Below, piece by piece: positions 29,048-34,625 of a stretch of 64,000 nt of DNA. The position numbers were made by a program, and so were the translations under genes. Source of the stretch: Nitrosophilus labii (GTDB taxonomy: Bacteria > Campylobacterota > Campylobacteria > Campylobacterales > Nitratiruptoraceae); contig NZ_AP022826.1 of assembly GCF_014466985.1 (NCBI RefSeq), positions 744,001 through 808,000 of the forward strand, written 5' to 3'. Below the pieces are notes generated by a model that was not told the origin of the DNA, made no database searches, and was given only the letters and a program-made list of their open reading frames with translations. Position 1 is the stretch's first letter. Each line of letters starts with the position of its first letter.

Positions 29048-30214
29048 ATGACACAGTTTGTAGTTGATGAAGATCCACTTTTATCAATGATGAAATGGAT
29101 GATGGAACAGTTGATGAAGATTGAGTCCGAGATGAAAGTTGGAGCTAAAAAAGGTGAGCATAATAGTGAGAGAAAAAGCTATTTCAGTGGTTATAGACCA
29201 AGAAGGTTCGATACGAGACTAGGGACAGTTTATCTTATGATTCCAAAGATAAGAAAAGGTGGCTACATTCCCTTTTTCATCACCGAAAAGAGAAGAAGTG
29301 AACAGGCTCTGATTTCGATGGTGAAAGAGGCATACGTCAATGGAATATCAACAAGAAAGATAGAGCGCCTTGCAAAAGAGCTTGGAATCGAGAATATCAG
29401 TGCTTCGCAGGTATCACAAATCAATAAGGGATTGGACGAGCAAGTTGAAAAGTTTCGCAACCGTTCTTTGGAAAAAGAGTATCCCAACGCAAGGGTTGAC
29501 GCTTTGTATGAGAAAGTGAGAGACTATGAAGGAAGAGTGGTATCTACCGCTATTATGATAGCTTATGGTGTAACACTAGAAGGCAAAAGAGAAGTATTAG
29601 CCATAGAGCCATTTATCAATGAGTCTTATGAGACTTGGAGAAATTTCTTTGAGAGACTCAAAGAAAGAGGATTACAAAAGATTGCTTTGCTTATTAGTGA
29701 TGTACATTTAGGGATTCAAAAGGCTTTCAAAGAGAGTTTTATTGGCGCATCATGGCAACGGTGTAAAGTCCATTTTATGCGTAATATCCTGGCTCATGTT
29801 CCACCTAAAGCAAAAGAGAAATTTGCAGCCAAACTTAAAACTATTTGGCTACAAGAGGGCAAAAAAGATGCATTCATAATAGCACAGATGATTATAGAGG
29901 AGTTTCGCAAAAAATTCCCTGAAGCTACCCAAGTGCTTCAAAATGGATTGGAAGACTCTTTGCAGTTTTATCACTTCCCGCAAATTGATAAAAGGAGGAT
30001 AAGTTCGACAAATGTGTTAGAAAGAATCAACAAGGAGATTAGAAGACGCTCTAAAGTAGTATCTGTTTTTCCATCAAGAGAGTCCTATATTAGACTCATT
30101 ACCACATACTTGATGGAGTACACTGAAGACTGGGAGATTGAGAGAAGTTATATTCATCCACAAAAGCTTCAAGAGGTGATGGAAATCTATGAAGCGCAGC
30201 TTAAAGCTGCTTGA
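29048..30214 (+). CDS. IS256-family (mutator) transposase, apparently intact
   Basis: A 388-aa DDE transposase of the IS256/mutator type. Candidate catalytic residues lie in ARVDALYEKVRD, LLISDVHLGIQKAF and STNVLERINKEIRRRSK (the Asp, Asp, Glu positions), with the family's WQRCKVHFMRNIL between them. The frame is open upstream to 28967 without a good start codon, so a few N-terminal residues before ATG 29048 are possible; GGAGG at 28982-28986 could serve an unusual start. It is different in sequence from the inner element's transposase. Confidence 0.92.
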   Translation: MTQFVVDEDPLLSMMKWMMEQLMKIESEMKVGAKKGEHNSERKSYFSGYRPRRFDTRLGTVYLMIPKIRKGGYIPFFITEKRRSEQALISMVKEAYVNGISTRKIERLAKELGIENISASQVSQINKGLDEQVEKFRNRSLEKEYPNARVDALYEKVRDYEGRVVSTAIMIAYGVTLEGKREVLAIEPFINESYETWRNFFERLKERGLQKIALLISDVHLGIQKAFKESFIGASWQRCKVHFMRNILAHVPPKAKEKFAAKLKTIWLQEGKKDAFIIAQMIIEEFRKKFPEATQVLQNGLEDSLQFYHFPQIDKRRISSTNVLERINKEIRRRSKVVSVFPSRESYIRLITTYLMEYTEDWEIERSYIHPQKLQEVMEIYEAQLKAA

Positions 30215-30223
30215 TATGCAATG

Positions 30224-30231
30224 AAATATAA
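30224..30231. repeat. Target-site duplication of inner IS256 element (left copy)
   Basis: AAATATAA here is repeated at 31568-31575, directly flanking the inner element. It shows insertion just downstream of the outer transposase gene. Confidence 0.9.
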
Positions 30232-31567
30232 GGGACTGTAAAATAAACTGTGTAAACCACCTAAAGCCCTTAAAACCTTAGCGTGTATATTTTTGCATAA
30301 TTTCACTGAAAAATATACAAAGCTGAGGATAGATTTCACTCCAGCTTCTGATTTTTGTATTACTCCATTTGTGCTGTACCTCCTGTGTGGCAAGATAAAG
30401 AAGCTTAAAAGCTGAATCGATGGTTGGAAAAGAACCCACAGACTTTGTTCTTTTTTTAATATTTGAATTTATCGATTCTATGGGATTTGTCGTATAAATC
30501 AGTTTTCTTATAGCTTGGGGATATTTAAAAAATGTAGATAGCTCATTCCAGTTAGATTGCCAAGACTGGGTAATATGGGGATATTTTTGACCCCATTTGT
30601 CATTAAAATTTGTAAGAGCAAGCTCTGCTTCTTCTTCGGTTGATGAAGTGTAGATACTCTTTAAATCTTTAGCTACCTCTTTTCTATCTTTCCAAGATAC
30701 AAATTTTAGGCTATTTCTGATCTGGTGTACAATACATCTTTGAATTTCTGCCTTTGGATAAACTGCCTCTATAGCCTCTTTAAATCCATTTAGTCCGTCT
30801 ATTGCAAATATCAATACATCTTCAACACCTCTGTTTTTTATCTCATTTAAAAGTGTTAACCACTGTTTAGAACTTTCATTTTCACCTATCCATATACCAA
30901 GAATATCTTTTTTCCCTTCAAGAGTTATGCCTAGCATTATATATGCAGCAATATTTTTAACTACTCTATCCACTCTTATTTTTAAAACTGTAGCATCCAT
31001 AAATATTATCGGATATATTGCCTCTAGCGGACGACTATGCCACTCTTTTGCCTTATCTATTATTGCTTCTGTTATATTGGAAATTGTCTGAATAGAAAGT
31101 TCATACCCATATAAATCATCAAGATGGTGTTGAAATCTGTTCACTCATCCCTTTTGCATATAAAGACAAAATTAAATCTTCTGTCCCCTTTATGAGAGTC
31201 TGTCGCTTCTTGATAAGCTTTGGTTCGAAGGTAGCGTTTCTGTCTCTTGGTATCTTAACCTCTATATCCCCATATTTGGACTTTAAAGTTTTTTCACTGT
31301 ATCCATTACGATAATTTGGATTATCTGAAACTTGATGCTTCTCATATCCTAAATGCTCAGTTAACTCTACTTCTGTAGCAGTCTGATAAACCTCTTTTAA
31401 AAGACCTTTGAATTCTTCCAAGATCTCATCAATATCTATCCCCTTTCCCTCTTTGATAGCTTTTTTTACCTCTTCTGTATTGATATACCTCATTGTGTAA
31501 ATCCTTTTTATTCTTTAATTTTATCTAATCTTTTTATAAGGATTTACACAGTTATTTTTACACTCCC
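30232..31567 (-). mobile_element. Inner IS256-family insertion sequence
   Basis: The ends are near-perfect inverted repeats: GGGACTGTAAAATAAACTG at 30232 and GGGAGTGTAAAAATAACTG read inward from 31567, both followed by TGTAAA. Flanked by the AAATATAA duplications. The length of 1,336 bp is typical. Its transposase is on the minus strand and is frameshifted, so this copy is probably inactive alone. Confidence 0.93.
30278..31493 (-). pseudogene. IS256-family transposase disrupted by a frameshift
   Basis: Two overlapping minus-strand frames make one transposase of about 405 codons. Codons from 31493 encode the N-terminal part up to LILSLYAKGMSEQ; the next frame continues at FQHHLDDLYGYELSIQTISN to 30278. 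The family normally reads smoothly from KGMS to QHHL, so a small indel (net -2 or +1) near 31125-31140 breaks it. Catalytic positions are in IIFMDATVLKIRV, IFAIDGLNGFKEA and TNPIESINSNIKKRTK, all in the second part. Programmed frameshifting is not usual for IS256. Confidence 0.88.
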
Positions 31568-31616
31568 AAATATAACTTGCTGGGAAGGAAAATTGCGAAT
31601 TTTTCTTGACATTATC

Positions 31617-32347
31617 CCAATAATTTTATTAGCCTCCTTGAGTGATTTGAAGTTATAGTGCCAGATACACTCTTCCTTGATGGTTCGGAAGAACCTTTCA
31701 ATCATACCATTTTGTTCAGGAGTGTAGGGAGTAATAAATTCCTGAGTAAAATTATAATCTTTGATTGTTTTGGTGAATGATTTGCTGCTAAAAACTAGAT
31801 CATTGTCGCTTCGTAATACAATGGGCTCTTTCAATCGCTGGAGTCTTCCGAAACGGTAGATTAGATCTTCTTGCAAAGCTGCCTCTGCTGTGTTTGCTTT
31901 ACCGCTTTTTGAGAGTCTCCATCCAACGATTTCACAGGTACAAGTATCAATCATGCAAGCTAAAGTACTCCAGCCATCATTGATACTGTAGATGCGGGTC
32001 ATATCGATTGCCCATCTTTGATTGGGATAGTGTGAACGTGAAGGCATCATTTTGGCTCTTGGCCTATGCCCTTTGGAACGCTTTCTTACCTGCCAACTTT
32101 TTAGTTGCAGAATGCACTGCACTGCTTTTTTGTTCATTCCAAGCAGCAAAGCTAAACGACGATAGCCATACGTTGGAAACTTTTCAATCATCTCTTTGAC
32201 TTTTTTAACACGCCCTTCATCTAGTTTTTGCATTCTTTTAATTGGTTTATAATAAAAGCTCCTGCATGGAAGTTCAAAAAGAGAACAAAGCTTTGTGATG
32301 CTGATTGAGTAACCTTCACTTCTCATCTCGCTCTGAACTTGCATCAC
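31617..32347 (-). pseudogene. IS3-family OrfB, N-terminal 90 percent
   Basis: The minus-strand frame from GTG 32347 encodes an HTH_21/rve integrase: SITKLCSLFELPCRSFYYK, NQRWAIDMTRIYS (first D), VLRSDNDLVF (second D) and TPYTPEQNGMIERFFRTIKEE (the E). It is broken at KIIG by the IS256 insertion; the frame runs on through inserted sequence to 31544 with 24 foreign residues. GTG 32347 overlaps the orfA stop. The missing C-terminus is at 28782-28877. Confidence 0.88.
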
Positions 32348-32664
32348 TTCTTCTCTTTTCCGAACAGAGCGTCGTACTTTTTTAATGCGATATTCTCCAA
32401 TGTCAATTCACCGATGACTGCCTTCATATCTTTTATCTTCTCTTCATATATAGCAGCAATATCTTTAGGTCTGGCACGAAGCTGATTCTCCATATCTCTG
32501 CGTGCATCTTCCATCCACTCCTCTATTTCCCCAGGCGTCAAATCATACTTTCTCGCAACTTCAGTTACTGTTGTTTTTCCTTGAAAAATATCCATAACGA
32601 TGGAAGCTTTCTTTTTTGCTGTAAAACGCTTTATCTCTTCTTGATTTTTATTTAATTTCTCCAT
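32344..32664 (-). CDS. IS3-family OrfA (helix-turn-helix protein)
   Basis: A 106-aa protein with the Tnp_1-type HTH (FTAKKKASIVMDIFQGKTTV then TEVARKYDLTPGEIEEW) and a C-terminal leucine-zipper-like helix (IGELTLENIALKKYDALF). Such OrfA proteins bind IS ends and are fused to OrfB by -1 frameshifting. Here orfA and orfB overlap by four bases (GTGA on the minus strand), so re-initiation is an alternative. Confidence 0.88.
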   Translation of the reverse strand: MEKLNKNQEEIKRFTAKKKASIVMDIFQGKTTVTEVARKYDLTPGEIEEWMEDARRDMENQLRARPKDIAAIYEEKIKDMKAVIGELTLENIALKKYDALFGKEKK

Positions 32665-33006: not shown

Positions 33007-33168
33007 TTAGGAGGGACTAATTAATGTGTATCTTACTCTCCATATTTTGCTGTCATTGGGTTTTATTTCCAGTAGTAAACCGTTGCTATCGCTTAATCTG
33101 TATATTTTGTCTTTAGGCTTTGAAATTTTAATTTTTCTATCGCTTAGAGGAGTTGCGATTCTGCACAT
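33007..33168 (-). pseudogene. Tyrosine integrase, N-terminal arm-binding domain remnant
   Basis: A 53-codon minus-strand frame from ATG 33168: MCRIATPLSDRKIKISKPKD, then KIYRLSDSNGLLLEIKP and SKIWRVRY. This is the DUF4102 arm-type DNA-binding start of P4-like phage/island integrases (T-x-LTD-x-x-I-x-x-A-K-P-x-x-K pattern, then W-RF-RY). The match stops after RY, and the catalytic domain is gone. It lies just downstream of a tRNA gene on the same strand, the classical place for an island integrase. Confidence 0.75.
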
Positions 33169-33355
33169 TTTGAACCTCTTTTATTGAGTATAAAAATGAT
33201 GCTTATTGAGTAATGAATGATTATACTCAATAACATACTCAAATTGCAATGAGTACGGGTAGTGTTTTTTGAGTATTGCTGAGAAGGCTTTTGTCTTGTT
33301 TTTGTCGATTTTAGGGATTTGAGGTATTTTTGAGAAAAACAAAAAGAATGCTCGG
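33169..33355. other. AT-rich gap between integrase remnant and tRNA
   Basis: No gene is supported here. On the minus strand the tRNA 3' flank carries a T-rich run (33330-33349) that could end the tRNA transcript. The stretch around 33180-33260 has several GAGTA(A/T) repeats (GTATTGAGTA-like units on both strands), possible arm-site remnants of the lost element. Confidence 0.4.
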
Positions 33356-33429
33356 TGGGCTCGGCAGGACTCGAACCTGCGACCAACCGGTTATGAGCCG
33401 GTTGCTCTAACCAACTGAGCTACGAGCCC
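33356..33429 (-). tRNA. tRNA with CAU anticodon (elongator Met, or Ile2)
   Basis: The minus strand gives a 74-nt cloverleaf: acceptor GGGCTCG/CGAGCCC, D arm GCTC...GAGC with AGTTGGTTA loop, anticodon stem ACCGG/CCGGT with loop CTCATAA (anticodon CAU), T arm GCAGG/CCTGC with TTCGAGT loop, discriminator A. The next bases are CCG, so the 3' CCA is not fully encoded. CAU tRNAs with this loop are elongator Met or lysidine-modified Ile2; I cannot separate them. Its flanks pair with each other (GAATGTTCGGT against ACCGAGCATTC), extending the acceptor helix by 11 bp. Confidence 0.95.
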
Positions 33430-33472
33430 ACCGAACATTCTTGTGGGGTTGTCGTCGCTTTGTTCCTCGGAC

Positions 33473-33507
33473 GAGCCGGTTGCTCTAACCAACTGAGCTA
33501 CGAGCCC
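33473..33507 (-). pseudogene. Duplicated 5' half of the tRNA-CAU gene
   Basis: These 35 bases are identical to the first 35 of the intact tRNA (acceptor 5' strand, whole D arm, anticodon 5' stem and the CTC entering the loop). They lie 43 bp upstream of the intact gene on the same strand and stop at the anticodon loop. The promoter at 33534-33562 faces this half copy first. It looks like a displaced half left by site-specific integration at the anticodon loop, or a tandem duplication. Confidence 0.9.
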
Positions 33508-33518
33508 GAAGCTCTTAA

Positions 33519-34625
33519 TCAAGTACGGGTGGAATTATACAAAAAATTAAAACGAAATGCAAGTAGATGTTCCAAAATCCCAAATAAGATCATAAAATTT
33601 ACAAAACTGCTCCCACCATAACTAAAAAGAGGAAGTGGTACTCCGACCACAGGGGCTAGTCCTATGGTCATAGCTATATTTACGCTCATATACATAAAAA
33701 GTAAAAGAGCGATGCTAGTTGCTACAACTTGTGTAAAATAGTCTCCTTTTAGTTTATAGTTTAGACTAAGTATATGTATAATCAAAAGGGCATATAAAAA
33801 AACTAAAAATAGTGCTCCGAAAAATCCATATCTTTCTACGTAATAGGCAAAAATAAAATCGCTAGAGGCTATAGGTAAAAATTTTAGTTGAGTTTGAGTG
33901 GCTTCATCTTTCTCTTTTCCGGTTAGTCCTCCCGAACCTATGGCTATGATGGATTGCTGCACATGGTAGCTAGGTTTTTCGCTTAAAAAGTCGTGAATCC
34001 TCTTTTTTTGATAATCGTGTAGAAGATATTTGTAAGATATAGGAGTAAAAATAGCTAAAAAGATAGTGATTGTAGTCCAAATTTTCCAGTTTACTCCTAT
34101 TACGAAAAGTACGCCGTATCCTATGATAAGTAGTATCAAAGCAGTACCCAGATCCGGCTCTTTGGCTATGAGTATGAAAGGTAAAAGTATGTAAAAGGAG
34201 ATTTTTAAAAACTCTTTCCATCCATAGCCGCTTTTTGGTGGAGGATTTTCTTGTATAAGGTAAGCTAACATCAAAATAAATGCCGGTTTGAAGATCTCCG
34301 AAGGTTGGATTGTAAAGTGAATGAAAGGCAGCTCCAACCATCTTTGTGCTCCAAGTTTACTAACACCGAAAAGATCCACACTTATAAGAAGAGCTATATT
34401 GATCCAGTATATGGTAGGGATAAGCCATTTGTACTCTCTAAGAGGAGTGAGAAAAAAAACAATAAATGCTCCGACCCCTACAGATATATAAACTATCTGT
34501 TTTTTTGAAAGCAAAGGATCTATTTCTGAGATAAGGGAGAAAGAGATTGCAACGATAGGGATAATTAAAAGTATCAAAATAAAATCAAAATGTGTTATTA
34601 TTCGTCTATCTATCATAAGTCTCAT
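33519..34625 (-). CDS. rodA: SEDS-family peptidoglycan glycosyltransferase RodA
   Basis: RodA polymerises lipid II in the elongasome with PBP2 (mrdA, 63266). The 368-aa protein has about ten membrane spans and SEDS motifs: GAQRWLELPFIHFTIQPSEI, KEPDLGTALILLIIGYGVLF, GSGGLTGKEKD and APVVGVPLPLFSYGGSSFV. The loop Asp of KEPDLGTA is the putative catalytic residue. A nearby FtsW function is possible, but the length and the QPSEIFKPA-type motif suit RodA. The last codons overlap the tRNA promoter, and the stop lies only 12 bp from the tRNA half copy. Confidence 0.92.
   Translation of the reverse strand: MRLMIDRRIITHFDFILILLIIPIVAISFSLISEIDPLLSKKQIVYISVGVGAFIVFFLTPLREYKWLIPTIYWINIALLISVDLFGVSKLGAQRWLELPFIHFTIQPSEIFKPAFILMLAYLIQENPPPKSGYGWKEFLKISFYILLPFILIAKEPDLGTALILLIIGYGVLFVIGVNWKIWTTITIFLAIFTPISYKYLLHDYQKKRIHDFLSEKPSYHVQQSIIAIGSGGLTGKEKDEATQTQLKFLPIASSDFIFAYYVERYGFFGALFLVFLYALLIIHILSLNYKLKGDYFTQVVATSIALLLFMYMSVNIAMTIGLAPVVGVPLPLFSYGGSSFVNFMILFGILEHLLAFRFNFLYNSTRT
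33534..33562 (-). promoter_or_regulatory. Sigma-70-type promoter of the tRNA locus
   Basis: On the minus strand TTGCAT (33562-33557), 17-bp spacer, TATAAT (33539-33534). The predicted start near 33527 lies 20 nt before the tRNA half copy. The promoter is embedded in the last codons of rodA. Confidence 0.7.

Follow-up and report, generated by a model that had tools for sequence, protein, structure and literature searches.

How does a broken half of a tRNA gene come to lie between a promoter and an intact copy of the same gene, and which of the two is older? This question is raised by a 64,000-nt window of the Nitrosophilus labii genome (GCF_014466985.1, NZ_AP022826.1, positions 744,001 to 808,000; genome G000), which is the whole stretch of DNA that we analyzed and whose numbering we use here. 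An intact tRNA gene with the anticodon CAT lies at 33356 to 33429 on the minus strand (Rfam RF00005, 76.8 bits; ARAGORN gives 33354 to 33429). On the same strand, positions 33473 to 33507 are identical to 33395 to 33429 (35/35 nt, start-to-start offset 78 nt), and the 43 nt between the half and the intact tRNA (33430 to 33472, minus strand) form a spacer that we call X. Chance is ruled out for an exact 35-nt repeat 78 nt apart. Read from the sequence, the first base of the repeat is nucleotide 1 of the tRNA and its last base is C34, inside the anticodon. The sequence-only reading of this locus had described a 35-nt exact copy of the 5′ half and a 43-nt spacer, and we confirmed the coordinates of both. 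Three further points were borne out: the break lies in the anticodon loop, mobile DNA is nearby, and the promoter reaches the half before the intact gene. ARAGORN labels the intact tRNA Met. Of six matches to a pattern for this tRNA in the genome, three were confirmed by ARAGORN as CAT tRNAs. CAT tRNAs come in three kinds; thus, this genome probably has no second copy of the kind found in the window. By its resemblance, we presume that it could be the lysidine-type isoleucine tRNA.

The question of age depends on the promoter. The conserved upstream neighbor is an FtsW/RodA-family gene (rodA; 33519 to 34625, minus strand), and the half begins 11 nt past its stop codon. The end of rodA contains TTGCAT-17-TATAAT (33534 to 33562, minus strand; −35 at 33562 to 33557, −10 at 33539 to 33534), which is very probably a promoter. 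The earlier reading described this promoter as near consensus. Its −35 element is weak, with 3/6 matches to TTGACA, and the site was not listed by a consensus scan that required at least 4/6 matches. The distance from TATAAT to the half is 26 nt, and the 20 nt given earlier suits a predicted start site, not the −10. We counted conservation in the 25 loci with rodA upstream, after dropping the 5 of 30 loci without it. TATAAT and TTGC are kept in 25/25 and TTGC[AT]T in 24/25. The promoter overlaps rodA codons, so protein constraint may account for part of this conservation. In the window, TATAAT lies 104 nt ahead of the intact tRNA. The same promoter is present in 22 relatives that have no 5′ half, and there TATAAT is 14 to 54 nt ahead of the intact tRNA. 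The half therefore sits at the promoter distance of plain tRNAs in relatives, and judging from this spacing it is probably the original 5′ end of the gene, with the intact copy as the newcomer. To call the half a copy was thus probably the reverse of what happened, since the fragment occupies the ancestral place.

We searched with the region in 60 genomes, that of the window and 59 more, and read the state of the locus in 30 of 37 loci. In the sister genome G002, the order is 5′ half, X, whole tRNA, short trailer (approximately 14 to 20 nt, varying with the chosen start of the 3′ half), and 3′ half; one tRNA is nested between the anticodon-split halves of another. The same nested layout, with decayed halves, is found in genome G008 of Nitratiruptor, a deep-sea vent bacterium to which the organism of the window is related. 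A second 5′-half match (at most 8 mismatches) was present only in G000, G002, and G008 (3/30 loci). The earlier proposal of a tRNA-half-like small RNA is left without support, because the half differs at 7/35 positions in G008 and is missing in 27/30 loci. The outer halves tile one tRNA, running from nucleotide 1 to 34 and then from nucleotide 33/34 (a displaced copy in G000, described below) or approximately 35 to 37 (G002). The spacer measures 43 nt in G000 and G002 and 40 nt in G008, and no element with an integrase occupies that gap. Seven loci of the genus Nitratiruptor (G006, G007, G009, G012, G013, G016, and G017) have the tRNA followed by a trailer and a decayed 3′ half. This arrangement is doubtful in G019, and no half was visible by eye in G001, G003, G004, or G005.

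A 69-nt query with X (E ≤ 1e-8) against 398 genomes of the order matched G000, G002, and G008 (3/398), and an exact pattern spanning the half/X junction matched 2/398. We built a tree of 22 RodA proteins from the 25 loci, leaving out G013, G038, and G041, for which the protein was too short or not found. The nested state requires two changes on the best tree, whose well-supported branches force only one. In the window, the trailer is AGCATTCTT (33344 to 33352, minus strand), seen in the sequence and as an arm of an inverted repeat, with a T-rich stretch behind it. G002 and G008 share the first 8 nt of this trailer, whereas the full-length trailer is common to G002 and Nitratiruptor. Since G002 keeps the full Nitratiruptor trailer and its sister G000 just 8 nt, further integration and deletion must be assumed.

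Could the mobile DNA now beside the tRNA have produced the half, as the sequence-only reading had supposed? Approximately 185 nt past the tRNA lies a truncated tyrosine integrase (Arm-DNA-bind_3, 53 aa; 33007 to 33168, minus strand), of which the N-terminal domain alone is left. We take it to be of the P4 type; a tyrosine integrase right after the tRNA is what an island of this type has, and the window is in this respect like P4-type islands at tRNA 3′ ends. Beyond it are an IS3-type transposase pair (rve and HTH_Tnp_1; 31544 to 32664, minus strand), a Mutator-type transposase in two pieces (30278 to 31493, minus strand), and a second Mutator-type transposase (29048 to 30214, plus strand). Just ahead of the integrase start, TTATTGAGTATAA and its reverse complement (13 nt each, 27 nt apart; 33181 to 33233) form an inverted pair that perhaps serves as operator or arm sites. 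The integrase query matched 18 of the 60 genomes, among them that of the window, and 17 of the 18 other integrase loci scanned contain a tRNA or tmRNA gene. Relatives of the integrase adjoin tmRNA and tRNA-Sec genes in L043, L046, L049, and L054. A 405-aa integrase frame also lies downstream of a CAT tRNA after rodA in G021 (L047).

In the genomes of G002 and G008, however, the integrase query gave no match at E ≤ 0.001, and there the tRNA is followed by the 3′ half, not by the island (the G002 contig ends approximately 0.45 kb further). Because the island lies on the 3′ side of the tRNA, and because genomes that share the half and the spacer have no match to its integrase, it does not account for that half. 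Among 14 integrase-adjacent tRNAs in loci of approximately 3 kb (L043, L046, L050, L057, and L059 were left out), none had a half copy of at least 75% identity. Thus, a half beside a tRNA is no routine outcome of integration. A truncated P4-type integrase beside a tRNA is in itself nothing unusual. The earlier reading had also held that the same half in relatives without mobile DNA would point to an old tandem duplication. In part this applies, as G002 and G008 carry the half with no match to the island's integrase, but a plain tandem duplication does not follow either, because the spacer is no copy of the leader. X was compared with five leaders, and of 2000 shuffles 852 to 1902 did as well; we rejected a tandem duplication of leader and half.

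In G000, a 43-nt 3′ half (88%) lies at C1:1,177,228 (L061:12229-12271), 400 kb from the tRNA and in the opposite orientation. The next gene after it is a small cytochrome-like gene, a relative of which comes next after the plain tRNA in G001 (60%, 66%, and 67% in separate comparisons). A large polymerase-like gene, which we take to be dnaE, lies 45 kb further. Its order, side, and strand with respect to the tRNA agree with those in G001, where it is approximately 2.5 kb off. The tie of the 3′ half to its cytochrome-like neighbor rests on the single relative G001; the gene is elsewhere in G005, had no match in G003, and has a 62% paralogue on the second contig (C2) of G000. From position and strand, one inversion of approximately 400 kb would reunite rodA, the tRNA, the broken island, and the 3′ half. 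IS-related pieces approximately 1.4 to 1.5 kb ahead of the displaced 3′ half match positions 30113 to 30231 (87%) and 31568 to 31616 (92%) of the window, which is consistent with such an inversion. Only if it took place would the displaced fragment be the other end of the P4-type island. The overlap found both where the half meets X and where the displaced 3′ half begins is TC only, not approximately 7 nt. The displaced 3′ half, the G002 3′ half, and the G017 relic all carry two T-arm changes (CAGG to TAGA), so these three may be one old relic. We considered whether the sequence to the left of the displaced 3′ half is a decayed tRNA with trailer and rejected this, since 967 and 1219 of 2000 shuffles did as well, although MAFFT aligns it loosely with the trailers.

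We also looked for an origin of the spacer. The last 13 to 14 nt of X pair with the trailer, so that the acceptor stem of 7 bp becomes part of an inverted repeat of 20 nt (95%; 33344 to 33363 versus 33423 to 33442). With this arm removed, X of G000 resembles X of G008, and of 5000 shuffles 2 did as well. A weak hairpin, TCGTC...GACGA, spans the half/X junction (−4.9 kcal/mol in G000 and G002, −4.5 in G008), and its stem is retained with an altered loop between genomes. As a decayed direct 3′ half, X of G000 was matched by 1878 of 5000 shuffles, and X of G008, with a weak signal, by 90 of 5000. An inverted copy of trailer and 3′ half was rejected, since nothing beyond the 13- to 14-nt arm stands. 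X without the arm, compared with the reverse complement of the G002 3′ half, was equaled or bettered by 6 of 2000 shuffles (X of G000) and 4 of 2000 (X of G002). The other 13 of 15 such comparisons gave at least 209 of 2000, and duplex energies gave 52 to 325 of 500 shuffles over 15 comparisons.

Among phages and plasmids, 1416 and 424 records matched, none over 80% of the query, and the matches listed (20 of 1416 and 20 of 424) all fall on the intact tRNA and up to approximately 20 nt beside it. A pattern match in a viral contig was taken as chance, as ARAGORN finds no tRNA in that contig. In genome contigs, the same pattern occurs in six stretches: the contigs of G002 and G016, three of Nocardia, and one of Binatia. 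At its 3′ end, the window's tRNA has an encoded CCG (33353 to 33355, minus strand) where comparison with other tRNAs shows CCA to be usual. CCG is encoded by all three nested tRNAs and CCA in 26 of 27 other loci, as well as in 12/12 other G000 tRNAs examined. The exception is L036, the G010 tRNA, which is likewise without an encoded CCA.

We favor, at about an even chance, the explanation that the locus carries scars of integrase-type recombination at the anticodon loop, left by elements that were later lost. From the structure, the conserved promoter, the nested layout in relatives, and the displaced 3′ half with its neighbor, we infer the following course. Recombination at the anticodon loop, most likely by a tyrosine integrase acting at an attachment subsite there, would have imported DNA with a replacement tRNA, while the old 5′ end stayed with its own promoter. 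The products would be a 5′ fragment upstream, as in the window, and a 3′ fragment downstream (G002 and G008) or 400 kb off (G000). The elements would later have been lost, with X and a short trailer remaining. Next to the intact tRNA, a P4-type island presumably also integrated and was later disrupted, IS elements now adjoining it, and an inversion may have carried the 3′ fragment away in G000. At present, the promoter would read through the half and X, and RNase P would remove both as a 5′ leader. Several points count against this explanation. No element remains at X, with none ending in X found in the genome, phage/plasmid, and viral-contig searches, and many relatives have no half at all, which requires losses. 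The TC-only overlap, the 14 integrase-adjacent tRNAs without a half copy, the extra integration and deletion needed for the trailers, the two changes on the best rodA tree, and the reliance on G001 for the neighbor of the 3′ half also weigh against it.

The main alternative is a single event, in which X, tRNA, and trailer were inserted together into the old anticodon loop, splitting and replacing the gene; relatives that have just a 3′ half or none would have lost parts later by direct-repeat slippage. The tiling of the outer halves speaks for this, as do the inverted repeats where X ends and the trailer begins and the likeness of the armless X in G000 and G008. The homology of inner and outer gene also extends from nucleotide 1 to the 3′ end of the tRNA and no further, as one would see with two distinct genes. 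However, the searches with X found no such element, several losses are needed on the rodA tree, and we know of no recombinase that routinely inserts a whole tRNA into an anticodon loop; we consider this course possible, but clearly on the unlikely side. A version in which X, tRNA, and trailer are a minimal cassette with inverted arms, moved between genera into the anticodon loop of a resident tRNA and taking its promoter, seems to us very improbable.

A course without any integrase is doubtful, and more so than a single insertion. Slippage or template switching at the tRNA hairpin could have duplicated the 5′ half with templated filler, copying the trailer into the leader. The reverse-complement arm of X abuts the acceptor stem as this predicts, and the two low shuffle counts against the G002 3′ half agree with it, but the remaining 13 of 15 comparisons and the duplex energies are unremarkable, only the arm stands, and it would be unexplained why the half stops where the 3′ half starts. 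We regard as least probable of all that the half and X work as a leader, regulating or processing the transcript or yielding a stable tRNA-half-like RNA. In its favor, X is alike in G000 and G008 while the half differs, the TCGTC/GACGA stem persists although its loop has changed, and the leader is able to pair with the trailer. Against this, the half has decayed in G008 and is missing from most loci, and the hairpin in X is weak and present in only three genomes. When a 200-nt transcript was folded in silico, the free optimum (−83.9 kcal/mol) was not a full cloverleaf. Forcing the inner cloverleaf gave −80.3, a cost of 3.6, and when the outer half was made to pair with the inner 3′ half the energy was −61.8, a cost of 22.1. 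The interrupted older gene looks like a fossil, without sign of a new RNA.

In the Islander report (PMC4383910), the anticodon loop is the crossover site in 2083 of 3919 islands. By its count, the fragment is a 5′ one in 159 islands and a 3′ one in 3760, so the earlier remark that a 5′ half is opposite to the usual case was right, but such a half is not unprecedented. The window resembles these tRNA-targeted islands in its tRNA with a displaced fragment, in the anticodon-loop break, and in an upstream 5′ fragment as expected for the rare 5′ class, having a true tRNA end and lying on the same strand as the intact tRNA. It is unlike them, as they are described there, in that 43 nt and not an element separates fragment and tRNA and in that fragments flank the tRNA on both sides in G002 and G008. 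An archaeal system, according to its description, also uses the 5′ half; its new gene is driven from the integrase promoter, whereas that of the window is apparently driven from the original promoter. In split and intron-bearing tRNA genes, going by the excerpted accounts (PMC4033280, PMC4090602), the tRNA is likewise interrupted at or near the anticodon, but the interrupted gene in the window looks dead and an intact copy lies inside it. Among the titles and abstract openings listed in the literature searched, no nested bacterial tRNA was found. The locus illustrates how one copy of a tRNA gene can take the place of another behind an unchanged promoter, with the old halves left as markers. 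It also calls for caution, in that of a tRNA and a fragment next to it, the fragment may be the older and not the newer.
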